Part shown: positions 20,392-52,694 of the stretch, one piece after another
Position numbering within the stretch: the stretch's first letter is position 1
How the letters are laid out: every line of letters starts with the position of its first letter
Assembly (NCBI GenBank): GCA_001828855.1
Contig: MHZT01000040.1
Location: 177,064 to 241,063, forward strand
Reading direction: 5' to 3'
Source of the DNA: Rhodobacterales bacterium RIFCSPHIGHO2_02_FULL_62_130
Lineage (GTDB): Bacteria > Pseudomonadota > Alphaproteobacteria > Rhodobacterales > Rhodobacteraceae
DNA length: 64,000 nucleotides
Translations under genes and position numbers: made by a program
Notes under the pieces: generated by a model
What the model was told of the DNA's origin: nothing
The model's database searches: none
Seen by the model: only the letters and a program-made list of their open reading frames with translations

Positions 20392-21102
20392 ATGAATGAT
20401 CCGCTTGTCCTGATCCCCGGTCTGATGGCGGATGCACGGCTGTTCCTGCCGCAGATGGTGCAGCTGGGGGCGGATCGGGCCATGCTGGTTGTGCTGCCCA
20501 CCCGCGGCGAAACGGTCGAGCAGATGTCCGAGGCCATCCTGCCCGCATTGCCGCCGAAATTCGCGCTGCTCGGGCATGGTCTGGGCGGCGACATTGCGCT
20601 GGATCTGATCCGTCGTGTGCCGGATCGGGTGACCCGTGTGATCCTGATGGCCACCGATCCTCTGCCCGAACCGCCCGCCAGTGCCGCCGCGCGCGAGATG
20701 CGGATCGTGGCCGCGCGGTCGGGCCGTCTTGGGCAAGCGATGCATGAGGAAATCCCGCCCGCTGCCTTGGCCGATACCGAATGGCGGGCCGAGATTCTGG
20801 CGCTTGTGCAGGATATGGCGCTGGGTTTGGGGGAGGGGGCGTTCCTGCGCCAGTCCCGCGCGCTGCAACGCCGCCCAGATCAGCAAAAGACGATGCGGCG
20901 GGTGAAACTGCCCGCTTTGGTGATCGCAGGTGCGGCGGATACGCTGGTGCCGATGCGGCGGTCGGAATTCACCGCAGGGCTGATGCCCTTTGGCAAGTTG
21001 CAGGTGATTGCCGATGCAGGCCATCTTGCCTCGCTGGAACAGCCCGAAGCTGTCAGCGAGGCTTTGGCGGCCTTTCTGAAAGGCCCGGTGCTACTGCGCT
21101 GA
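20392..21102 (+). CDS. Alpha/beta hydrolase (second, divergent)
   Basis: 236 residues. The fold starts PLVLIPGLMADARLF. At the nucleophile position the elbow reads LLGHGLGGDIAL, with His-Gly-Leu where Ser is expected (family GxSxG); the elbow centre is Gly, so the catalytic Ser may be missing. An acid is in AGAADTLVP (about 187) and the His in IADAGHLASLEQPEAV (about 213). Its 3' end overlaps the convergent phaZ by 12 bases. The lack of the Ser suggests a non-hydrolytic or altered chemistry. Confidence 0.78.
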   Translation: MNDPLVLIPGLMADARLFLPQMVQLGADRAMLVVLPTRGETVEQMSEAILPALPPKFALLGHGLGGDIALDLIRRVPDRVTRVILMATDPLPEPPASAAAREMRIVAARSGRLGQAMHEEIPPAALADTEWRAEILALVQDMALGLGEGAFLRQSRALQRRPDQQKTMRRVKLPALVIAGAADTLVPMRRSEFTAGLMPFGKLQVIADAGHLASLEQPEAVSEALAAFLKGPVLLR

Positions 21103-22380
21103 CTTCACGGCTGCCAGTTTGGGAGCTTCGATCTTGGCCACTTTCGGCGCGCCAGAATTGGCGTCGATAAAGTTCAGCACCAGCGGGCGGATGTTCAACC
21201 GCCAGCTTTTGCCCGCGAAGATGCCGTAATGGCCCGCGCCCGGTTCAAGGTGGCTGGCCTTTTTCGAATCAGGCAGGCCGGTCAGCAGATCCAGCGCCGC
21301 GATGCACTGGCCCGGCGCGGAAATATCATCTTCCGAACCTTCCACCGTCTTCACCGCCACTTGGGTGATCGCGCCGATATCCACCTTTTTGCCCGCCACG
21401 ACGAATTCGTTCTTGGCGATTTCGCGGTTTTTGAAGATCCGCTCGACGGTGGAAAGATAGAACTCGGCGGTCATATCCATCACCGACAGATATTCATCAT
21501 AGAACCGGTTATGGGCGTCGTGATCCGAAGCCTCACCCTGCGCGACGCGCATGATCTGGTCGGTAAAGGCCTTGGTGTGGCGTTCCGCGTTCATCGACAT
21601 AAAGCTTTGAAGCTGCAACAGCCCCGGATAGACTAGCCGCCCCACGCCCTTGTATTTGAAGCCGACGCGCTGGATGGCGATCTGTTCCAACTGCCCCATG
21701 GTGATGCGGCGGCCAAAGTCGGTCACGTCTGTCGCGGCGGCATCGGGATCAATCGGCCCACCGATCAGGGTCAGGCTGCGCGGCTGTGCGGCTGGGTCTT
21801 CGCCTGCCAGATAGGCGGTGGCGGCAAGGGTCAGCGGCGCGGGCTGACAGATGGCGATCACATGGGTGTCCGGCCCAAGATGTCGCATGAAATCAACCAG
21901 ATAAAGCGTGTAATCCTCGATGTCGAACTTGCCTTCCGACACCGGAATATCGCGGGCATTGTGCCAGTCGGTGACATAGACATCGGCATCGGGCAACAGG
22001 CTGGAGACGGTAGAGCGCAGCAGCGTCGCGTAATGGCCCGACATCGGCGCCACCAGTAGAATCTTGCGCGTCATCGGTGCGCGGCGGCGGACATGGAAAT
22101 GGATCAGGCTGCCGAAGGGCTTGTCCACCACATTAACCACATCGACAAGGTGATCCTGCCCGTCGGGACCGGGGATCGACCGGATGCCCCAATCCGGCTT
22201 GGCCACCATGCGGCGGAAACTGCGCTCGGTCACTTCGCCCCAGGCTGCGGTCAGTTGCAGCATCGGGCTGAACGACATCGAGAACGCCGGATAAGACGCC
22301 ATTGCCCTTGCGGTGGCACCCATCCACTCATTTGTGTTACGGATGCTTTCCATAAGGTCATAGGTGGTCATATACTTCAT
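21091..22380 (-). CDS. phaZ: Intracellular poly(3-hydroxybutyrate) depolymerase
   Basis: Mobilises PHB granules inside the cell. 429 residues from ATG 22380 (MKYMTTYDLMESIRNTNEW); an upstream in-frame GTG-type extension lacks homology. The active-site Cys178 lies in VIAICQPAPL, as in PhaZ1-type cysteine depolymerases. The C-terminal His lies in LEPGAGHYGIFAGKSWR. SD AAGGAGACGCCG precedes the ATG. Divergent from phaC with a PhaR-type box between them. Confidence 0.93.
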   Translation of the reverse strand: MKYMTTYDLMESIRNTNEWMGATARAMASYPAFSMSFSPMLQLTAAWGEVTERSFRRMVAKPDWGIRSIPGPDGQDHLVDVVNVVDKPFGSLIHFHVRRRAPMTRKILLVAPMSGHYATLLRSTVSSLLPDADVYVTDWHNARDIPVSEGKFDIEDYTLYLVDFMRHLGPDTHVIAICQPAPLTLAATAYLAGEDPAAQPRSLTLIGGPIDPDAAATDVTDFGRRITMGQLEQIAIQRVGFKYKGVGRLVYPGLLQLQSFMSMNAERHTKAFTDQIMRVAQGEASDHDAHNRFYDEYLSVMDMTAEFYLSTVERIFKNREIAKNEFVVAGKKVDIGAITQVAVKTVEGSEDDISAPGQCIAALDLLTGLPDSKKASHLEPGAGHYGIFAGKSWRLNIRPLVLNFIDANSGAPKVAKIEAPKLAAVKSAQ

Positions 22381-22449
22381 CGGCGTCTCCTTGCGTGGAA
22401 AAGGGCCACGGCCCGTTTGCCGCATACCCTTAGGGGCAGGGCGAAGTTA

Positions 22450-22464
22450 TGCTGCACAGCAGCG
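22450..22464. promoter_or_regulatory. PhaR-type box between phaZ and phaC
   Basis: TGCTGC-ACA-GCAGCG, an almost perfect dyad, 23 bases before the phaC start and 70 before the phaZ start. The same arms occur at 24357, 30798 and 35432. Confidence 0.6.
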
Positions 22465-22486
22465 AGAATAGGGGCGAAAGTTTAAC

Positions 22487-24283
22487 ATGACAACTGAAGA
22501 CAACGACGCAGGCGCAAAATTGGAAAGATTGAATGCCAATCTTGCGAAAGTAGAAGCGTTGTCTGCCCGCCTGATGGCCGCTTTGGCCGCGCGCAAGCCT
22601 TCGGACCCCGGTGTGCAGGGGCCGGGCAATGACATCTATATGAAGGCCGCCACCGCCTATATCGCGGCGATGATGCAAGATCCGGCCAAGGTGCTGGAAA
22701 ATCAGGTAAGCTACTGGGGCAAAACCCTGAAGCATTATGTCGAGGCGCAGCAGGCGCTGGCCTCGGGCGAATTCAAGGCCCCTGCCGATCCCTTCCCGAA
22801 GGACCGCCGCTTTTCCAACCCGCTGTGGGAAACCCATCCCGCCTTCAACTACCTCAAGCAGCAGTATCAGTTGAACGCCGAGGCTGTTCACAATTCCGTT
22901 GAGGCGATGGACGCCATCGATCCGGGCGACAAGCGCCGTGTGGAATACTTCACCCGCCAGATCGTCGATATGATGGCGCCGACGAATTTCCTTGGCACCA
23001 ACCCCGACGCGCTTGAAAAAGCGGTCGAGACCGATGGCGCAAGTCTGGTGCAGGGGCTTGAAAATCTGGTCCGCGACATCGAGGCGAATAACGGCGAATT
23101 GCTGGTGACGCTGGCTGACCGCGAAGCGTTCCACGTTGGCCAGAATATCGCCTCTACCCCCGGTTCGGTGGTCTACCGCAATCGCATGTTCGAGCTGATC
23201 CAGTATACCCCCACCACGGAAACCGTCTACCAGACGCCCTTGCTGATCTTCCCGCCGTGGATCAACAAATTCTACGTGATGGACCTGAAGCCGCAGAACA
23301 GCCTGATCAAATGGATTGTCGATCAGGGCTTTACGCTGTTTGTGGTGTCTTGGGTCAACCCCGATGCATCTTACGCCGATGTCGGGATGGATGACTATAT
23401 CCGCGAAGGCTATCTGACCGCGATGGCCGAGGTGCGCCGCATCACCGGCGAAAAGCAGATCAATGCCGTGGGCTATTGCATCGCAGGCACCACGCTGGGC
23501 CTGACCTTGGCGCATCTGCAAAAGGCGGGAGATCAATCGGTCAAGACCGCGACCTTCTTCACCACGCTGGCCGATTTCTCCGATCCGGGCGAGGTGGGCG
23601 TATTCCTGAACGATGATTTTGTCGATGGCATCGAACGGCAGGCCAACAATGACGGGATTCTCGCGCGCACCTTCATGAGCCGGACATTTTCCTTCCTGCG
23701 CTCGAACGACCTGATCTATCAGCCCGCGATCAAAAGCTACATGATGGGCGAGGCCCCGCCCGCCTTTGATCTGCTCTATTGGAACGGCGACGGCACCAAC
23801 CTTCCGGCCAAGATGGCGCTGCAATATCTGCGCGGGCTGTGCCAGCAGGACGGCTTTGCCAAGGGCGCGTTTCCGGTGTTCGGGCGGCCTGTCAGCCTGT
23901 CTGACATCAAGCTGCCGCTCTGCGCCATCGCCTGCGAAACCGACCATATCGCGCATTGGCGTGGCAGCTTTAACGGCATCAAACAGATGGGGTCCGAGGA
24001 TAAGACCTTCATCCTGTCGCAGTCGGGCCATATCGCGGGCATCATCAACCCGCCTTCCAAGGGCAAATATGGCCACTACACCAGTGCCGCCCCCGTTTCG
24101 GGCGACCCCGAGGCATGGCTGGCAGGGGCAACCTTCAATCAGGGAAGCTGGTGGCCACGCTGGGGCGCATGGCTGTCGGCGCAGTCCGGCCAACAAATAA
24201 AGGCCCGCGTCCCCGGTGATTCGGTGCATCCCGTGCTATGCCCCGCGCCCGGCACCTATGTGACCGCTCAGCCAACTGGTTGA
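22487..24283 (+). CDS. phaC: Class I poly(3-hydroxyalkanoate) synthase
   Basis: Polymerises (R)-3-hydroxybutyryl-CoA into PHB at the granule surface. 598 residues, class I length. Catalytic triad visible: Cys331 in GYCIAGTT (lipase-like box with Ala in place of the common Gly), Asp486 in CETDHIAHW and His515 in QSGHIAGIINPP. PWINKFYVMDL near residue 262 is also typical. It starts the phaC-phaP-phaR series; the 145-base spacer to phaP carries two PhaR-type boxes. Confidence 0.97.
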   Translation: MTTEDNDAGAKLERLNANLAKVEALSARLMAALAARKPSDPGVQGPGNDIYMKAATAYIAAMMQDPAKVLENQVSYWGKTLKHYVEAQQALASGEFKAPADPFPKDRRFSNPLWETHPAFNYLKQQYQLNAEAVHNSVEAMDAIDPGDKRRVEYFTRQIVDMMAPTNFLGTNPDALEKAVETDGASLVQGLENLVRDIEANNGELLVTLADREAFHVGQNIASTPGSVVYRNRMFELIQYTPTTETVYQTPLLIFPPWINKFYVMDLKPQNSLIKWIVDQGFTLFVVSWVNPDASYADVGMDDYIREGYLTAMAEVRRITGEKQINAVGYCIAGTTLGLTLAHLQKAGDQSVKTATFFTTLADFSDPGEVGVFLNDDFVDGIERQANNDGILARTFMSRTFSFLRSNDLIYQPAIKSYMMGEAPPAFDLLYWNGDGTNLPAKMALQYLRGLCQQDGFAKGAFPVFGRPVSLSDIKLPLCAIACETDHIAHWRGSFNGIKQMGSEDKTFILSQSGHIAGIINPPSKGKYGHYTSAAPVSGDPEAWLAGATFNQGSWWPRWGAWLSAQSGQQIKARVPGDSVHPVLCPAPGTYVTAQPTG

Positions 24284-24330
24284 GCGGACAGAGCTTTTTA
24301 CCCGCGTCAAGCCCTGCGTCACTGTCATCG

Positions 24331-24371
24331 CTGCGTTGCAGAAGATTTACTTGAAATGCTGCACTGCAGCA
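24331..24371. promoter_or_regulatory. Two PhaR-type boxes upstream of phaP
   Basis: CTGC-GTT-GCAG at 24331-24341 and TGCTGC-ACT-GCAGCA at 24357-24371, the second a perfect dyad 57 bases before phaP. They closely resemble the TGC-rich dyad bound by PhaR in Paracoccus denitrificans. Confidence 0.65.
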
Positions 24372-24428
24372 TGTATATATTGATCATCAGGAAACGGGCG
24401 GAACCCGAAACCCTTAGGAGCAAATCAA

Positions 24429-24878
24429 ATGACCAAGACCCCGGATTTCACCAAAGCATTCCAAGACGCAATGGCTTCGTTCCCCGTGGACGCAACCGCG
24501 TTCCAGAACGCGTTCAAAACCCAAGCCGCTTTCGGCGAGAAGCTGTCCAAAGTCGCTTTGGAAGCTGCTGAAAAGTCGACCGAAATCTCGTCCAAATGGG
24601 CGAAAGAAACCATCGCCAAGCTGTCGGCTGCTGCCAAAGCCAAAGCCGAGCCGACCGATTACACCAAAGCCGCAACCGACTTCGCATCGGCCGCTGCTGA
24701 ACTGGCTGCCGAAAATCTGGCTGCTTTCGCTGAAGTTGCGAAAAAAGTGCAGTCCGAAACCGTTGAACTGTTGCTGGCCGCTGGCAAGGACGCTTCGGAA
24801 GAAGCAACCGCAGCCGTGAAGAAAGCCGCGACCGAAGCAACCAACGTTGCGAAAAAAGCAGCCGCTGCTGCCAAGTGA
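24429..24878 (+). CDS. phaP: Phasin (PHB granule-associated protein)
   Basis: 149 residues, Ala/Lys/Glu-rich, amphipathic helices throughout, coating PHB granules. The start MTKTPDFTKAFQDAMASFPVD and the segment TQAAFGEKLSKVALEAAEKSTEISSKW are in phasin_2 style. The last third is a run of AAVKKAATEATNVAKKAAAAAK. Codon use is restricted to frequent codons, fitting high expression. Preceded by AGGAG and followed by a strong terminator. Confidence 0.92.
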   Translation: MTKTPDFTKAFQDAMASFPVDATAFQNAFKTQAAFGEKLSKVALEAAEKSTEISSKWAKETIAKLSAAAKAKAEPTDYTKAATDFASAAAELAAENLAAFAEVAKKVQSETVELLLAAGKDASEEATAAVKKAATEATNVAKKAAAAAK

Positions 24879-24927
24879 TCCTTTAGGATCGCGCGTCTCC
24901 TTTCCTCCCCCACAGGATGATGCGCAT

Positions 24928-24960
24928 GGGCGGGCCTATAGCCCGCCCTTTCTTTTTTTT
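24928..24960 (+). terminator. Intrinsic terminator of phaP
   Basis: GGGCGGGC (24928-24935) and GCCCGCCC (24941-24948), loop CTATA, followed by TTTCTTTTTTTT. Clear Rho-independent terminator just before the phaR promoter region. Confidence 0.9.
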
Positions 24961-24990
24961 CTGCACTGCCCTAGACTTCTCTGCACTGCA
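24961..24990. promoter_or_regulatory. PhaR-type half-dyads upstream of phaR
   Basis: CTGCACTGCC at 24961-24970 and CTGCACTGCA at 24981-24990, 20 bases apart, i.e. two helical turns. Suggests autoregulation of phaR by its product. Confidence 0.55.
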
Positions 24991-25021
24991 ATAAAACTGC
25001 ATGAAGACCGGGGAGTCTGTG

Positions 25022-25582
25022 ATGGCCGATACTGCCAAGCCGCTGTTGATCAAGCGTTACGCCAGCCGTCGTCTCTATAACACCGAGACATCGGATTATG
25101 TGACACTGGAAGACATCGCAGGCTTCATCCGCGCAGGGCGCGAGGTGCAGATCGTCGATCTGAAATCCGGCGATGATCTGACGCGCCAATACCTGCTGCA
25201 AATCGTGGCCGAGCATGAATCCAAAGGCGACACCGTGTTGCCCACCAATGTGCTGACCGATCTGGTGCGGTCCTACACCACCAATATCCAGTCAGTCGTG
25301 CCGCAATTCCTGTCCGCCAGCTTTGAGATGCTGCGCGACGGCCAGCACAAGGTGATCGAAAACCTTGGCACCATCCCGAACCCGCTGACCGCGATGCCGG
25401 GCTTTGACATGATGCGTAAGCAGCAGGAAGCCTTCATGAAAACCATGATGGGCGGCGTTCCCGGCTGGGGCGGCTCTGGTCCGGCGTCGGAAGAACCGCA
25501 AACCCCGCAGGCTGTCGCGGATGAACTGGCCGAGATCAAAAAGCAATTCGCCGAATTGCAGAAAAAGCTCTCGAAACTCTGA
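25022..25582 (+). CDS. phaR: PHB synthesis repressor PhaR
   Basis: Represses phasin and other PHB genes and is released by binding PHB. 186 residues from ATG 25022 (SD GGGGAG; an upstream in-frame ATG at 25001 adds only 7 residues). The DNA-binding domain is KPLLIKRYASRRLYNTETSDYVTLEDIA (about 7-34); the PHB-binding region follows to about 110, then a Met/Gly/Pro-rich linker and a C-terminal coiled coil ADELAEIKKQFAELQKKLSK. Confidence 0.95.
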   Translation: MADTAKPLLIKRYASRRLYNTETSDYVTLEDIAGFIRAGREVQIVDLKSGDDLTRQYLLQIVAEHESKGDTVLPTNVLTDLVRSYTTNIQSVVPQFLSASFEMLRDGQHKVIENLGTIPNPLTAMPGFDMMRKQQEAFMKTMMGGVPGWGGSGPASEEPQTPQAVADELAEIKKQFAELQKKLSKL

Positions 25583-33468: not shown

Positions 33469-34614
33469 CTAAGGTTTCATCGTCTTTTCAAGCGCATATA
33501 CGGCCAGCCCTGCCAGCAATCCCCAGAACGCAGCCCCGATGCCAAAAGCCGCCACGCCCGAGGCGGTGGTGGCTAGCGTGATGGTGGCGGCAAAGCGGGT
33601 GGCGGGCGGGGTGAAAGCCCCCGTCAGCGCGCCCATCAGCGGCCCCAGCAGCGCCAGCGCCACCAGCGCCGTCATCAAGGGCGGGGGCAGGGCGGTCAGA
33701 ATCGTCAGGATCAGCGGCCCCGCCAAGCCCAGCAGCAGCCAGAATCCGGCATAGGCCACCCCGACTTTCCAGCGCTGGGCGCGGTCGGGATGGGTATCCT
33801 CACCCAGACAGATCGCCGCCGTGATCGCCGCCATGCTGATGGTATGCGCGCCGAACAGCCCCGAAATCGCCGACAAAACCCCCGTCGTCGCCAGCGCCGC
33901 GCGCACCGGCGGCTCATATCCCGCCGCGCGCAGGGTGGCAAAACCGGGCAGATTCTGCGAGGCCATCGTGACCAGATACAGCGGCACGCCCAGCCCGATC
34001 AGAACATCGGGCCGGAAACTGGGGGCGATGAAGGTCAGGGTGGGTAGGGGCAGCGCCAGAGCGGGCAGGCTGGACCCGCCGAAGGTAAAGGCCAGACTCA
34101 ACCCTGTCGCCAAGGCTGCCAGCACCGCCAGCGCCGGATTCTTCAGACGCACCAGCAGAAACACCGCGATCATCGGGAACACCAGCGCAGGCAGCGCTTG
34201 CGCGGCGGCGCTGCCCTTGAGGCAAAATGGCAGCAGCACACCCGCCAGCATCCCCGACGCCACGCCATCGGGAATCAGCGCCACCAACCGCCCCAAGGGC
34301 CGCAGCGCGCCGGTCAGGGCAACCAACGCACCTGCCAGCACAAAGGCCACCACCGCCTCGGCCATGGTGATGCCGGATGTCGCGGCGATCAGCGCAGCGC
34401 CGGGGGTGGACCACGCCAAAACCACCGGCACCCGCTGCGTGATGCTGAGAAACGCAGACCCGACCGCTTTGGCCAGACAGATGGCGAAAACCCAGCTTGC
34501 GGTTTGCGCCACTGTCGCCCCGACCGCCGCCGCCGCTGACAGCACCAGCGCGATGGTCGAGCCGTAGCCAACCAGCGCCGCCACCAGCGCAGGCGAAAAA
34601 AGTGAAAGCCGCAT
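33469..34614 (-). CDS. BenE-family (benzoate/H+ symporter type) transporter
   Basis: 381 residues from ATG 34614 (MRLSLFSPALVAALVGYGST); a longer in-frame start 18 codons upstream is less likely. About 12 hydrophobic helices. The segments WSTPGAALI near 67, IPDGVASGMLAGVLL near 113, and FGAHTISMAAITAAICLGEDTHPD near 253 are typical for BenE. Benzoate is the textbook substrate, but no aromatic genes are adjacent, so the substrate is uncertain. The CcsR array lies upstream in the same direction. Confidence 0.87.
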   Translation of the reverse strand: MRLSLFSPALVAALVGYGSTIALVLSAAAAVGATVAQTASWVFAICLAKAVGSAFLSITQRVPVVLAWSTPGAALIAATSGITMAEAVVAFVLAGALVALTGALRPLGRLVALIPDGVASGMLAGVLLPFCLKGSAAAQALPALVFPMIAVFLLVRLKNPALAVLAALATGLSLAFTFGGSSLPALALPLPTLTFIAPSFRPDVLIGLGVPLYLVTMASQNLPGFATLRAAGYEPPVRAALATTGVLSAISGLFGAHTISMAAITAAICLGEDTHPDRAQRWKVGVAYAGFWLLLGLAGPLILTILTALPPPLMTALVALALLGPLMGALTGAFTPPATRFAATITLATTASGVAAFGIGAAFWGLLAGLAVYALEKTMKP

Positions 34615-34681
34615 GAAACCGCCCCTGTCGTTTCGCCGGACTATCGGGGGGCTTTGCGGGGGATGCAAGCAGGGGGGGAGG

Positions 34682-34751
34682 GGCGGCGATCTCAGGGAGG
34701 AGGAGGAGATCGCCGCCGGATCGTTCGGCCCCAGGGAGGAGGAGGGGGCCG
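34682..34751 (-). ncRNA. CcsR-like sRNA unit 5
   Basis: Two hairpins, each with the loop CCUCCUCCCU on the minus strand. The second is GGCGGCGATCTC (34682-34693) with GAGATCGCCGCC (34706-34717), a perfect 12-bp stem. The first is CGGCCCC (34726-34732) with GGGGCCG (34745-34751). Last unit of the array. Confidence 0.75.
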
Positions 34752-34763
34752 TTCGAAAGGAGG

Positions 34764-34832
34764 GGCGGCGATCTCAGGGAGGAGGAGGAGATCGCCGCCG
34801 GATCGTTCAGCCCAGGGAGGAGGAGGGGGCCG
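34764..34832 (-). ncRNA. CcsR-like sRNA unit 4
   Basis: Same plan: 12-bp stem 34764-34775 with 34788-34799 is identical to unit 5. The other hairpin is shorter (GCCC 34810-34813 with GGGC 34827-34830). Loops are CCUCCUCCCU on the minus strand. Confidence 0.75.
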
Positions 34833-34845
34833 CTCGAAAGGAGGG

Positions 34846-34914
34846 GCAGCGATCCCAGGGAGGAGGAGGGGATCGCCACCGGATCGTTCGACCCCAGGGA
34901 GGAGGAGGGGGCCG
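34846..34914 (-). ncRNA. CcsR-like sRNA unit 3
   Basis: GCGATCCC (34849-34856) pairs with GGGATCGC (34869-34876). Compared with units 4 and 5 (ATCTC/GAGAT), two pair changes are compensated (ATCCC/GGGAT), supporting RNA structure. The other hairpin is CCCC (34892-34895) with GGGG. Confidence 0.75.
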
Positions 34915-34926
34915 TTCGAAAGGAGT

Positions 34927-34996
34927 GGCGGCAATCTCAGGGAGGAGGTTGAGATCGCCACCGGATCGCTCGGCCCTAGGGAGGAGGAGAGGGCCG
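34927..34996 (-). ncRNA. CcsR-like sRNA unit 2
   Basis: Stem GGCGGCAATCTC (34927-34938) with GAGATCGCCACC (34951-34962), two mismatches. First hairpin CGGCCCT (34971-34977) with AGGGCCG (34990-34996): the closing C-G pair of unit 5 is here T-A, a compensated change. Confidence 0.75.
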
Positions 34997-35014
34997 GTCG
35001 AAAGCAAGAAAAAA

Positions 35015-35085
35015 CGGCGACGCCAGGGAGGAGGAACAGCGCCGCCGCGCCTTCATACGGACCCCAGGGAGGAGGTTGGGACCCG
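35015..35085 (-). ncRNA. CcsR-like sRNA unit 1
   Basis: The most divergent unit and the one nearest the DUF1127 stop codon (about 10 bases away). Both CCUCCUCCCU loops (35025-35034, 35066-35075) are kept. Stems are CGGCG/CGCCG and ACGG-N2-CCC/GGG-N2-CCGT with an internal loop. It is followed by an A-rich spacer 35001-35014 on the plus strand. Confidence 0.7.
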
Positions 35086-35094
35086 TGTCAGGAA

Positions 35095-35310
35095 TTACTT
35101 GCCGTAAGCGGCTTCCGAAGCCACTTGGGCGATGACCGAGCGGCTGATGCCCAGATCGGTCAGATCACGATCGCTCAGCGCAGCCAGTTCACGCACGGTC
35201 TGGTCATAGACGCGGCGGCGGGCCAGAGCAGCTTTGACACCCGCAACCAGCGAACCAAAACGGTCCGAGATCGAAACAGTGGTAGCGCGGGTCGAATTCA
35301 CATATGCCAT
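35095..35310 (-). CDS. DUF1127 protein, CcaF1-like
   Basis: 71 residues, basic, with the DUF1127 motif near the C-terminus (LSDRDLTDLGISRSVIAQVA, residues about 45-64). In Rhodobacter sphaeroides a DUF1127 RNA-binding protein (CcaF1, RSP_6037) is co-transcribed with CcsR1-4 and affects their processing; here the same layout holds with five downstream units. SD GAGG precedes the ATG. The arrangement predicts heat- or oxidative-stress control via RpoH. Confidence 0.88.
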   Translation of the reverse strand: MAYVNSTRATTVSISDRFGSLVAGVKAALARRRVYDQTVRELAALSDRDLTDLGISRSVIAQVASEAAYGK

Positions 35311-35389
35311 GATAGCCTCATCAGTCTTTTACTTGGCGAGGGCGTTCCGACCGGATGTCGATCACGTCTTGCTCGCTGTTAGGGGTAAC

Positions 35390-35415
35390 ATGGGGCAAAT
35401 GCTGCGACTGCACAA
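35390..35415 (-). promoter_or_regulatory. Candidate RpoH-type promoter of DUF1127-CcsR transcript
   Basis: On the minus strand TTGTGC (35410-35415), 14 bases, then CCCCAT (35390-35395) followed by GTT. The -10 resembles the sigma32-type CCCCAT; the -35 is a partial match. Position gives a leader of about 70 bases. Confidence 0.4.
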
Positions 35416-35431
35416 TGGCCTGCCGAGTCAA

Positions 35432-35446: not shown

Positions 35447-35582
35447 AGCGCATGGCTCGTCGTCACAAAAAGTTCATCAAATACAGCATCTTCGCTGAAT
35501 CTTTGAGCAAATGGTCAAGACGCACTTGCCCTTTGCCCCAAACCAAACAACTTTGCGGAAAACTTATGCGGGGAATGAAGAT

Positions 35583-36656
35583 ATGGACCTGACGCGGGAC
35601 GACGTTCTAGCGGTGCTGTCACGGATTTCAACGCCGGGGGGCGGTGATCTGGTCTCGCGCGATCTTGTGCGCGCGCTGGTGATCGAAGGCGGACAGATTC
35701 GTTTTGTGATCGAAGCCGCCACGCCAGACGAGGCGCGCGGCCTTGGTCCGGCACAGGCGGCGGCGGAAATCGCGCTGAAGGCCTTGCCGGGGGTGACAGC
35801 GGTTTCGGCGGTGATGACGGCGCATGGTCCGGCAGCCAAGGCCGCCCCGCCGACGCTGAAGATCGGTCAGCACCCCACGCCGCAACAGGGCGGGCCTGCC
35901 CGTATTGCAGGGGTAGACCGCATCATTGCTATCGGGTCCGGCAAGGGCGGGGTGGGCAAATCGACCATCTCTTCCAACCTTGCGGTGGCCTTGGCCAAGC
36001 AGGGCCGTCGCGTCGGCCTGCTGGATGCCGATATATATGGTCCCTCGCAACCGCGCATGATGGGCGTCACCAAACGCCCCGCCAGTCCCGACGGCAAGAT
36101 CATCGAGCCGCTGGTGGCTCATGGTGTCACCATGATGTCGATTGGCCTGATGCTGAAAGAGGACGAGGCTGTGATCTGGCGCGGCCCGATGATCATGGGC
36201 GCGCTGCAACAACTGCTGACGCAGGTCGCATGGGGCAAACTGGACGTGCTGCTGATCGACCTGCCCCCCGGCACCGGTGACATCCAATTGACCCTGTGCC
36301 AGCGCACGCATCTGACCGGCGCGATTGTGGTGTCCACGCCGCAGGACGTGGCGCTGCTGGATGCGCGCAAGGCACTGGACATGTTCCAGAAACTGAAAAC
36401 GCCCGTGCTGGGATTGATCGAGAACATGTCCACCTATGTCTGCCCGAACTGTGGCCATGAGGCACATCTGTTCGGGCATGGCGGTGTGGCCGCCGAAGCA
36501 GCGCGGCTGGATCTGCCCTTCCTTGGCGAATTGCCGCTGGACCTGTCGGTGCGGCTGGCCGGAGACAGTGGCACCCCCGTGGCCGCAGGCGATGGCCCGA
36601 TTGCCGAGGCCTATGCCCGCCTTGCCGCGCGTCTGGTGGCGGGCGGGATGGCCTGA
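35583..36656 (+). CDS. mrp: Mrp/ApbC/Ind1-type iron-sulfur carrier ATPase
   Basis: P-loop NTPase that carries and transfers Fe-S clusters. 357 residues from ATG 35583; a longer frame from 35511 lacks homology. N-terminal DUF59 domain (about 1-75, DLVSRDLVRAL), deviant Walker A GKGGVGKST near 120, Walker B-like LIDLPPGTGD near 220, and the cluster-binding CxxC at C287/C290 (VCPNCGHEAHLFG). Read toward the dcw cluster, but a terminator and a long leader separate it from mraZ. Confidence 0.94.
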   Translation: MDLTRDDVLAVLSRISTPGGGDLVSRDLVRALVIEGGQIRFVIEAATPDEARGLGPAQAAAEIALKALPGVTAVSAVMTAHGPAAKAAPPTLKIGQHPTPQQGGPARIAGVDRIIAIGSGKGGVGKSTISSNLAVALAKQGRRVGLLDADIYGPSQPRMMGVTKRPASPDGKIIEPLVAHGVTMMSIGLMLKEDEAVIWRGPMIMGALQQLLTQVAWGKLDVLLIDLPPGTGDIQLTLCQRTHLTGAIVVSTPQDVALLDARKALDMFQKLKTPVLGLIENMSTYVCPNCGHEAHLFGHGGVAAEAARLDLPFLGELPLDLSVRLAGDSGTPVAAGDGPIAEAYARLAARLVAGGMA

Positions 36657-36988: not shown

Positions 36989-37203
36989 TTCCCTACGAAG
37001 ATGAGACGGGCAATCAAAAGCAGGGGCAGCTAAGACCCCGAACAGGCGAAAAAGACAGGCTCATACAGGCACCCGCCTCATCCCAAATCAGAGATCCGGC
37101 GCGCGAGCGAGCAGACATCTCCCCCAGGTGGCGCGCGTAGCTGGACGCCCAGCGATGGGACAGAAAGCGGATCAAGCAGTGGCAGCAGCTTGATCCGCTT
37201 TTC
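36981..37203 (+). ncRNA. UpsM-like sRNA from the dcw leader
   Basis: If transcription starts near 36981, an RNA of about 220 bases would end at the terminator 37164-37203, and the full mraZ leader would be about 265 bases. This copies the Rhodobacter sphaeroides arrangement in which most transcripts upstream of mraZ stop as the sRNA UpsM. The 5' end is a guess; the 3' end is well supported. Confidence 0.55.
37164..37203 (+). terminator. Intrinsic terminator upstream of mraZ
   Basis: AAGCGGATCAAGC (37165-37177) pairs perfectly with GCTTGATCCGCTT (37188-37200), loop of 10, followed by TTCC TATT. It sits 44 bases before mraZ and would cut most readthrough into the dcw cluster. Confidence 0.8.
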
Positions 37204-37246
37204 CTATTCCACCGCCCCGAACGTGAACGAAGGAGCCGCAAGGCCC

Positions 37247-37759
37247 ATGCTGACCGAGGCTTTCAGAGGCGAGTTCTACCAGAAGGTAGACGCAAAGGCG
37301 CGGGTGTCCATTCCCGCCGCCTTCCGCCGTATTCTGGAGGCCGAAGATCCCGCCAGCGCCGAATTTCCCCGCGCGCGTGTCTACATGGTCTATGGCGGCA
37401 AGCACCGCAATTTTGTCGAATGCTATTCCAAGGCGGGGGCCGATGCCCTTGCCGCCAAGATCGAGGCGATGGAACTTGGCAGCCCCGCGCGCGACCGCGC
37501 CGAACGTGACCTGATCTCCCGCTCTGTCATGGTGGAAATCGAACCCGATGGCCGCATCGTGCTGCCCGCCAAAGTGCGCGCCAAGATGGGCTTTGTGGGC
37601 GATGATCTGGCCAAGGGCGACGAGGCTGCCTTTGCCGGTTTCACCAACCGTTTCAAACTGTTCCGCCGCGATGTCTATGACGCCGAGCTGGCCGACGAGG
37701 ACGACGATGATGGCGTTGATCCGCTGGCCTTGGTCGGCAGGGCTGCGAGGGCGGAATAG
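37247..37759 (+). CDS. mraZ: Transcriptional regulator MraZ
   Basis: First gene of the dcw cluster and likely its own repressor. 170 residues from ATG 37247 (LTEAFRGEFYQKVDAKARVSIPAAFR). Two AbrB-like halves: DxKxRVSIPAAFR near residue 14 and EIEPDGRIVLPAKVRAKMG near 99. The acidic tail (DEDDDDG) is typical of Rhodobacterales. The upstream decamer repeats are its probable targets. The in-frame start at 37190 is inside the terminator and rejected. Abuts rsmH directly. Confidence 0.94.
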   Translation: MLTEAFRGEFYQKVDAKARVSIPAAFRRILEAEDPASAEFPRARVYMVYGGKHRNFVECYSKAGADALAAKIEAMELGSPARDRAERDLISRSVMVEIEPDGRIVLPAKVRAKMGFVGDDLAKGDEAAFAGFTNRFKLFRRDVYDAELADEDDDDGVDPLALVGRAARAE

Positions 37760-38773
37760 ATGACCGCTGCCCGCGATCCTGCCGCCGATCGCTCTCCCCA
37801 TATTCCTGTGCTGCTGCGTCCTTTGCTTGCTGCCGTGGCCCCCGTGCGGGGGCTTTGGCTGGACGGCACCTTTGGCGCGGGCGGCTACACCCGCGGCTTG
37901 CTGGAGGCTGGGGCCGATTGCGTGATCGGGGTGGACCGCGATCCTTTGGCGCTGGAACTGGCCGCGCCTTGGGCGGGGGCCTATGGCGACCGCCTGCGTC
38001 TGGTGCAGGGCAATTTTTCCGAACTTGACCAGCATGCAGGCGCGCAACTGGATGGTGTCGTGCTGGATCTAGGTGTGTCCTCGATGCAGATCGACATGGC
38101 CGAGCGCGGCTTTTCCTTCCAGAAAGACGGCCCGCTTGACATGCGGATGAGCCAATCCGGCGAATCCGCTGCCGATATCGTCAACACCGCATCCGAAGAA
38201 CGCATCGCCGATATCCTCTATCACTTTGGCGAAGAGCGCGCCTCGCGCCGCATCGCCCATGCGATTGTGGCCGCCCGCGCCACCGATCCGATCATCACGA
38301 CCCTGCGGCTGGCCGAGATTGTCTCGAAATGCCTGCCGCGTCCGAAACCGGGGCAAAGCCATCCTGCCACCCGCAGCTTTCAGGCACTGCGGATTGCGGT
38401 GAATGCCGAGTTTTCTGAACTGGTGCAGGGTCTTGGCGCTGCCGAACGCGCGCTGAAACCGGGTGGACTGCTGGCGGTTGTGACCTTTCATTCGCTGGAA
38501 GATCGTGTGGTCAAACGCTTTTTTCAGGCCGCATCCGGTGAAGAGCCGAACTCGAACCGCTATGCCCCTGCCAAATCCGGCACAACAGCGCGGTTTGAAC
38601 TGGTGACACGCAAGGCCGTCGGTCCCGACGATCAGGAGTTGGAAGAAAATCCCCGCGCACGCTCGGCCAAGCTGCGGGTGGCGCGTCGCACCGCTGCCCC
38701 TGCCATGGCCCCCGATGCCGCCAAGCTGGATGCCCCCGATCTGCCCCAGACCAAGAAGGGACGCCGCGGATGA
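37760..38773 (+). CDS. rsmH: 16S rRNA (cytosine(1402)-N4)-methyltransferase
   Basis: Methylates C1402 of 16S rRNA with SAM (formerly mraW). 337 residues, usual length. SAM-binding [18 protein letters not shown] near 33, [11 protein letters not shown] near 97, [26 protein letters not shown] near 193, and [16 protein letters not shown] near 238. The start codon follows the mraZ stop without a gap, and the end overlaps ftsL by 4 bases (ATGA). Confidence 0.97.
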
Positions 38774-52528: not shown

Positions 52529-52576
52529 GGCTTGGCCCGCGCGCGCCGCTCTGCTAGATCGGCCCGATCAACCCGG

Positions 52577-52694
52577 ACCCGGGTGCAACTCCCGGGTGGC
52601 TCTTCCGGCCGCCGATCCGCCGGACCACCGCTCAACTGACCATGATTTGCACCCAGACGCGCGCAAAGCCGCCACCGGTCAGGAACGGAATACC
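52577..52694 (+). ncRNA. Structured leader of the SulP gene (possible sul1-type cis-regulatory RNA)
   Basis: Three pairings are visible. Stem 1: ACCCGGG (52577-52583) with CCCGGGT (52591-52597), loop TGCAACT. Stem 2: GGTGG (52595-52599) with CCACC (52625-52629), enclosing TCCGGC (52604-52609) with GCCGGA (52619-52624). Pseudoknot: GGGTGCAA (52581-52588) with TTGCACCC (52647-52654). Stem 1 and outer stem 2 share three bases, so they exclude one another. The SD follows at 52681. Position before a sulfate transporter in a Rhodobacterales genome fits the described sul1 motif, whose consensus I could not check. Confidence 0.55.

Follow-up and report, generated by a model that had tools for sequence, protein, structure and literature searches.

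The window (the whole 64-kb stretch of DNA that was analysed) carries on its minus strand a DUF1127 gene that is followed by an array of ten RNA hairpins. The features discussed here are the following.

25001..25582, plus strand: phaR, PHB/PHA accumulation regulator gene (PF07879, E 7.4e-27), 10 kb from the array and putatively linked to it
33469..34614, minus strand: benE, benzoate transport protein family (PF03594, E 7.8e-99), downstream neighbour
34640..34668, minus strand: TTGCAT-N17-GATAGT, likely a separate benE promoter, similar in 10/15 loci of the genus
34682..34751, minus strand: unit 5, two hairpins (34751-34726 and 34717-34682), U-run absent behind it
34764..34832, minus strand: unit 4, two hairpins (34832-34808 and 34799-34764), Rfam match
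34845..34914, minus strand: unit 3, two hairpins (34914-34889 and 34880-34845), Rfam match
34927..34996, minus strand: unit 2, two hairpins (34996-34971 and 34962-34927), Rfam match
35009..35095, minus strand: unit 1 (CcsR1), two hairpins (35086-35057 and 35054-35008) with CCUCCUCCC loops; RF02791, 58.7 bits, E 1.3e-13
35009..35014, minus strand: U6 run (TTTTTT) directly 3' of the second hairpin of unit 1, conserved in the genus, putatively terminator-like
35095..35310, minus strand: DUF1127 protein gene, 71 aa, ccaF1 orthologue (PF06568, E 5.9e-13)
35388..35416, minus strand: putative promoter by sequence match, ATTGTG (-35, RpoH-like) and CCCATGT (-10)
35400-35416, minus strand: spacer element ATTGTGCA-GT-CGCAGCA, putative PhaR or LysR-type operator, near-invariant in relatives
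35511..36656, plus strand: mrp/apbC-type P-loop ATPase gene, divergent neighbour and synteny marker

The phaR gene belongs to a PHB cluster at 21091-25582, which comprises phaZ on the minus strand and phaC, phaP and phaR on the plus strand. PhaR-type boxes occur in this cluster at the phaP promoter (CTGCACTGCAG, 24359-24369) and before phaR (CTGCACTGCA, 24981-24990).

The minus strand has ten copies of CCTCCTCCCT at 34694-35075. The rest of the window has no copy, and 100 shuffles gave a mean of 0.05 and a maximum of one. The whole genome has 11 copies, ten of which are the array. The ten hairpins form five pairs, all with an identical CCUCCUCCCU loop on stems of 6 to about 16 base pairs, and the order within each pair is the weaker hairpin and then the stronger. 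An earlier sequence-only reading had described five two-hairpin units with ten loops on this strand, and this description is borne out. It had also given a repeat period of 81-88 for units of 70 bases; the direct-repeat spacing within the array is indeed 81-82, but unit 1 is longer and different. The loop had been equated with the anti-Shine-Dalgarno (anti-SD) end of 16S rRNA; it includes that end, with CCUCCU in common, but is not identical to it.

The predicted fold of 34670-35094 has an energy of -191.3 kcal/mol, compared with -142.5 +/- 4.7 for shuffled sequences (z -10.3). The first stem of unit 4 has 6 pairs only, one of them G-U, and the first hairpin of unit 1, folded alone, is no more stable than its shuffles (z -0.39). 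Long open frames run across the array (34613-35382 on the plus strand, 164 and 242 aa; 33914-34879 on the minus strand, 321 aa). These are probably not genes, they track the C/G-rich repeats. The genome has five DUF1127 matches, but only one CCTCCTCCCT lies outside the locus, and the other DUF1127 genes were rejected as sites of further arrays.

The stop codon of the DUF1127 gene lies 8 nt from the first stem, in agreement with an array start that had been placed within 10 bases of the gene. In 52 of 56 related DUF1127-linked arrays this distance is -4 to 17 nt, and the other four have 44 to 106 nt. The mrp gene is matched in 62 of 67 stretches examined, including the window and the locus L009 of the Rhodobacter sphaeroides-like genome G051; the 67 count our own locus and that of G051 twice each, and L042 and L147 have short mrp matches with 47% identity. 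Either benE or uvrD is present in many of the same stretches. The gene benE is probably outside the operon. A pattern TTGnnn-N17-GATAnT, found 11-29 nt beyond the last hairpin in 9/15 loci of the genus and at 108 nt in one more, looks like a promoter of benE's own and would separate it from the array. This pattern was not found in the other five of the 15 loci, four of which are short arrays.

An Rfam search of the units gave matches of all five to CcsR1 (RF02791), with E-values from 1.3e-13 to 2e-6. Units 2-5 score 34.5 to 41.6 bits, and even the best unit at 58.7 bits stays below the gathering score of 65.3. The array also matches ar14 (RF02344) at 34 to 46.7 bits, short of the gathering score of 58.8, and 6C RNA (RF01066) weakly, at 35 bits against a cut-off of 47 (E 0.013). 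6C RNA is an actinobacterial RNA with C-rich loops. A CcsR1 match at E <= 0.001 is present in 243/295 genomes of the family and in 1/14 control genomes. The gathering score is passed in only 10/295 and 0/14 of these respectively, and we therefore place the locus in the wider ccaF1-CcsR class rather than the strict Rfam family.

The ccaF1-CcsR1-4 locus of R. sphaeroides (CIN1), judged by L009 and PMC10253847, likewise has a gene for a 71-aa DUF1127 protein whose 3' UTR contains the array, some 10 nt behind the stop codon. Its units are hairpin pairs with CCUCCUCCC loops, and it has the promoter element and the mrp neighbour as well. It differs in that the window has five pairs and a U-run after unit 1, whereas the terminator described in the available text lies at the 3' end (PMC10253847). 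In L009 the later units are largely of another sequence type than those of the window. The sequence-only reading had proposed homology with this system, and the protein family, the Rfam CcsR1 matches, the promoter element and the gene neighbourhood agree on it. Because these are shared, the locus is best read as a ccaF1-CcsR orthologue. We consider it very probable that it is an ordinary member of this known stress operon (cuckoo RNA) class, in which the DUF1127 gene and the array are cotranscribed and the transcript is processed into anti-SD small RNAs.

Cuckoo RNAs are also found in Rhizobiales, where alpha-r14/NfeR1 and others (RF02344) have hairpins with CCUCCUCCC anti-SD loops; unlike the array in the window, they mostly have three hairpins. 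Outside Rhodobacterales, 61 of 82 arrays with at least three hairpins have no DUF1127 gene that was found within 400 nt upstream. Pattern matches in Streptomyces, Actinobacteria, Lachnospiraceae and others (L045, L089, L115, L124 and L152-L154, among the matches listed) are not arrays by our detector and were set aside as chance matches of low complexity.

The number of units varies widely among relatives. In 56 related arrays there are 3 to 14 exact loops (median 8), with ten or more in 19. The set was picked by Rfam score, a three-loop pattern and genus, and it therefore leans to long arrays; left out were L036 and L175 (repeats of our own locus), L024, L027, L032, L033 and L078 (arrays without an upstream DUF1127 match) and L029, L169 and L171 (no array by the rule). 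A DUF1127 gene is present in all 15 genomes of the window's genus, and the array has 8 to 14 hairpins in 11 of these loci and 3 to 5 in four, allowing up to one loop mismatch. L009, which belongs to the best CcsR1-scoring genome, includes a DUF1127 gene, the promoter element and seven exact-loop pairs, the last five of which are near-identical and about 114 nt apart. The available parts of two papers count four sRNAs, CcsR1-4, in R. sphaeroides (PMC8625941, PMC10253847), and the seven pairs of L009 may reflect a different copy, strain or way of counting. Since array size varies so freely, five units are unremarkable; the contrast of five here with four in R. sphaeroides, which had been put forward earlier, carries no weight, and we ruled it out as a novelty.

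In ten loci of the genus, the second hairpin of unit 1 is closer between genomes (0.77) than to the later hairpins of its own array (0.55). A wider set reverses this (0.46 between genomes, 0.58 within the array), and we therefore make no general claim of an ancestral unit 1.

A run of U residues follows the second hairpin of unit 1 at once, after a stem of about 11 pairs with a 13-nt loop. The count took as a U-run any 8 bases with six or more T within the 8-34 nt beyond the loop motif. Such runs are present behind hairpin 2 in 15 of the 56 arrays and behind the last hairpin in 25; among 396 other hairpins, three have one. Of 13 arrays in the window's genus, 12 have the run behind hairpin 2, and two of these (L170 and L172) have another behind the last hairpin. 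Judged by these counts, the position of the presumed terminator is a trait of the genus. Unit 5, which ends the array, has no U-run behind it, and the count shows no terminator-like U-run behind the last hairpin of L009 either. As terminal U-runs occur in only 25/56 arrays and not in L009, this lack does not exclude membership of the class. The comparison suggests that the loop and the promoter element are more stable than the length of the array or the place of the terminator.

Units 2 onward in the genus thus sit behind a terminator-like signal. If it were a strong terminator it would leave units 2-5 nearly silent; these units keep good stems and loops, and they are therefore presumably transcribed, by read-through. 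We propose that in this genus the U-run would end part of the transcripts after unit 1, which would place unit 1 in excess over units 2-5. A serious possibility, somewhat below an even chance, is that the U-run is an RNase E cleavage site or an Hfq tail and not a terminator. According to excerpts of the R. sphaeroides work, CcsR RNAs are released by RNase E (PMC8625941) and bind Hfq (PMC8307010). The presumed transcription of units 2-5 fits this too, and a 13-nt loop is long for a terminator; our terminator scan lists nothing at 35009-35014, because its loop limit is 8 nt. Against cleavage or an Hfq tail, the GC-rich stem runs at once into CTTTTTATT or TTTTTT, and U-runs are concentrated after hairpin 2 or the last hairpin and are rare elsewhere, as terminators would show.

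The sequence upstream of the DUF1127 gene (35416-35387) reads ATTGTGCAGTCGCAGCATTTGCCCCATGTT. By sequence match it is a putative RpoHI/RpoHII-type promoter, as in the R. sphaeroides-like G051. The pattern ATTGTGCA-N3-GCAGCA with a CCCAT-type -10 is matched at no fewer than 16 of 20 fixed positions in 45 of 55 related loci and in 0/1100 shuffles; the 55 promoters are those of the 56 arrays minus L055, whose upstream sequence is 41 bases long. When a strict RpoH-like pattern was required (TTG, 17-20 nt, CCCAT/CCAAT type), 22/55 promoters and 3% of shuffles had it, so the -10 region is less constant and the sigma-factor assignment is weaker in the other loci.

In the loci compared, the spacer element is more constant than the -10 region. 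In a gap-free alignment 54/55 loci depart from ATTGTGCA-NN-YGCAGCA at no more than one of its 14 positions. None of the 54 varies in TTGTGC or GCAGC, and conservation of the fixed -10 positions ranges from 50 to 91%. Four of the loci dropped from the counts (L024, L032, L033 and L078) also carry it. A spacer so conserved is, on this alignment, more than an RpoH promoter needs. The exact form TTGTGCA-N3-GCAGCA occurs once in the window's genome, before the DUF1127 gene. In three other genomes searched it occurs once in two and twice in G086, where the second copy (C16:21458-21473; L194/L246) precedes a 226-aa open frame, a possible further target of a shared regulator.

PhaR is a repressor that binds PHB granules, and the sequence of the promoter element resembles a PhaR operator. 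In the available text of PMC12542648 the printed Sinorhizobium meliloti PhaR sites include CAATTGTGCACCGCAGCATTA (mmgR) and ATATTGTGCAGTGCAGCAACA, and the printed R. sphaeroides consensus is CTGCNNNGCAG. The S. meliloti sites have the half sites of the array promoter with one base fewer between them, and the array element is GC-N4-GC where the R. sphaeroides consensus has N3. S. meliloti MmgR is described there as a PhaR-regulated sRNA whose promoter box nearly equals the element in the window (PMC12542648). It is a different sRNA with a GC-N3-GC box, and PhaR binding is reported for MmgR, whereas at the promoter in the window it is putative.

The N4 spacing was compared with that in 37 phaP/phaR stretches. 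Noncoding DNA away from phaR has TGC-N3-GCA in 27 of these and neither form in 10. Just before phaR, N3 alone is found in 17, TGC-N4-GCA alone in 12, both in two and neither in six. The 12 stretches with N4 alone have it where a PhaR box is expected, as putative sites. The sole exception to the promoter element among the 55 loci, L147 of Litoreibacter, reads TTGTTGCGACGCAGCA, which is the canonical N3 form with the right half unmoved.

A PhaR match is present in 289/295 genomes of the family. Six genomes have none (G150, G003, G090, G136, G321 and G363), and the promoter was read in G150 only. The locus of this genome is clear: a DUF1127 gene with eight hairpins and a U-run behind the last one. 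Its promoter retains ATTGTGC and AACAGCG in register, with the element matched at only 7/14 positions, and no element site at two or fewer mismatches was found in the promoter stretch. The nearest readable relatives by DUF1127 sequence keep the element in 10 of the 12 listed, the other two being copies of our own locus. Of the other genomes without a PhaR match, G003 has one weak CcsR1 match and G090 and G136 have no CcsR1 match. The element is retained in two incomplete genomes without a PhaR match, G300 (84% complete) and G166 (71%), and phaR may be missing from these assemblies. We put forward, at about an even chance, that PhaR would bind the promoter spacer and that the array would be released when PHB granules titrate PhaR away.

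The main rival reading assigns the invariant element to a LysR-type redox regulator (LsrB/VtlR), which would make the locus purely a stress operon. NfeR1 and AbcR1 are reported to be activated by LsrB, and the NfeR1 promoter to contain TGCA-N6-GCAT (PMC10746234, PMC8844928), and VtlR controls DUF1127 genes in Brucella through the motif CAATGCAGCCATGCA (PMC12595884). CATnGCTGCA, a sequence that fits the VtlR motif, is common among the boxes before Rhizobiales arrays, and the Rhodobacterales element fits a loose T-N11-A. The outer GC pairs, however, are spaced by 6 in the VtlR motif and by 4 in the array element. TTGTGCA and GCAGCA recur as half sites in the printed PhaR sites, GCAGCAT is common at phaP promoters, and the element is lost in a genome without a PhaR match (G150, scored for PhaR only). 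We regard a LysR-type site as rather unlikely.

Boxes of the form TGCRNYGCA are present within 300 bp before 37/82 arrays outside Rhodobacterales, compared with 75/1745 other 300-bp windows and 3% of shuffles. Where such arrays are linked to DUF1127, the box lies upstream of the gene in 8/26 (11 sites, 1.7 expected). Boxes occur at a similar place in Rhizobiales loci, for example L054, L081 and L112, about 55 nt before the first hairpin. As they often overlap the published LsrB/VtlR motif they were not counted as PhaR evidence, and this line of support was dropped.

It is improbable that the invariant spacer is part of an extended RpoH promoter to which no repressor binds. The TTG and CCCAT regions do fit the RpoH -35 and -10, and an RpoHI/RpoHII promoter is reported for the R. 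sphaeroides locus in the available text (PMC10253847). The GCAGC half, however, does not vary in any of the 54 aligned loci, compared with 50-91% retention of the fixed -10 positions, and G150 has lost the GCAGCA half with its -35 and AACAGCG start region still in register.

The stems of the array also appear to be selected as RNA structure. The compensatory pairs named in the sequence-only reading are present (unit 5 has CGGCCCC/GGGGCCG where unit 2 has CGGCCCT/AGGGCCG, and unit 3 has ATCCC/GGGAT where units 2, 4 and 5 have ATCTC/GAGAT). In an arm-swap test, the stem score of each hairpin was compared with the score obtained after its 3' arm had been replaced by that of another hairpin. The 466 exact-loop hairpins of the 56 arrays have a mean score of 24.9 unswapped, which falls to 12.5 when the new arm comes from another genome and to 13.1 when it is a different arm of the same genome. 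This supports the selection claimed earlier; these hairpins were preselected for stems of at least 5 pairs, and real pairing is therefore favoured. The window's own ten hairpins, which had no such preselection, score 25.6 with own arms and 15.0 swapped (90 swaps). Swaps among window hairpins of the same type give a smaller gap (19.8 and 17.2 for first hairpins, 31.3 and 25.6 for second hairpins), as expected because the units are close copies. That the array is a C-rich tandem repeat from replication slippage without RNA function would fit the close copies and constant spacing of the later units, but the loops are invariant while the stems covary and the locus and its neighbours are common across the order, which leaves this reading extremely improbable.

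Transcription, processing and targets of the array are proposed here from its relatives. A stress sigma factor of the RpoHI/RpoHII type would transcribe the DUF1127 gene and the hairpin array together, and the 3' UTR would be cut into two-hairpin sRNAs, in R. sphaeroides by RNase E with the DUF1127 protein CcaF1. Through their exposed CCUCCUCCC loops these sRNAs would then bind mRNAs at purine-rich ribosome-binding sites and keep them from being translated. Excerpts of the R. sphaeroides papers describe an RpoHI/RpoHII promoter and RNase E processing (PMC10253847, PMC8625941), flhR as a target with Hfq binding (PMC8307010), induction under stress (PMC8625941, PMC8307010), and effects of the operon on C1 metabolism and photosynthesis (PMC8625941, PMC10253847). 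Anti-SD silencing by a relative is described for NfeR1 on ntrB in the available text (PMC10746234). An effect on many mRNAs by way of their ribosome sites, which the sequence-only reading had suggested for the array, is likewise published for relatives such as NfeR1 (PMC10746234), and the array in the window may act in this manner. The exact complement of the loop, AGGGAGGAGG, is found 2-10 nt before ATG nowhere in the genome. An 8-nt version, GGAGGAGG-N2-10-ATG, has 11 sites compared with 3 matches in a reversed control, and several of these precede short frames only.

In the most far-reaching reading, PhaR would sit on the promoter spacer across Rhodobacterales, repressing the array through an operator between the RpoH -35 and -10; a filled PHB store together with stress would release the anti-SD RNAs, and in this genus the internal terminator would give an abundant first sRNA and a read-through reserve. 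We give this full scheme a little less than an even chance. The promoter element is the part that would matter; the array is well conserved and a routine case of an sRNA class already described. If true, carbon storage would directly tune a global translation brake, and the PhaR reading is a testable link from PHB storage to a stress sRNA operon. Among the papers listed by our literature searches there was no earlier report of the promoter element and none pairing PhaR with CcsR, CcsR1 or CcaF1; the primary CcaF1, CcsR and cuckoo RNA papers were outside their reach, and prior notice is possible.

Other RNAs were also sought in the window. A MraW methylase gene (37190-38773, plus strand) marks the start of the dcw cluster, and the gene preceding it is presumably mraZ. 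No Rfam match above cut-off was found at this dcw start. The R. sphaeroides sRNA UpsM derives from the 5' UTR of the dcw cluster, according to the available text of PMC8625941. The only RNA match at gathering level in the window is a sul1 RNA (RF03058) at 52572-52629 on the plus strand, with 75 bits.
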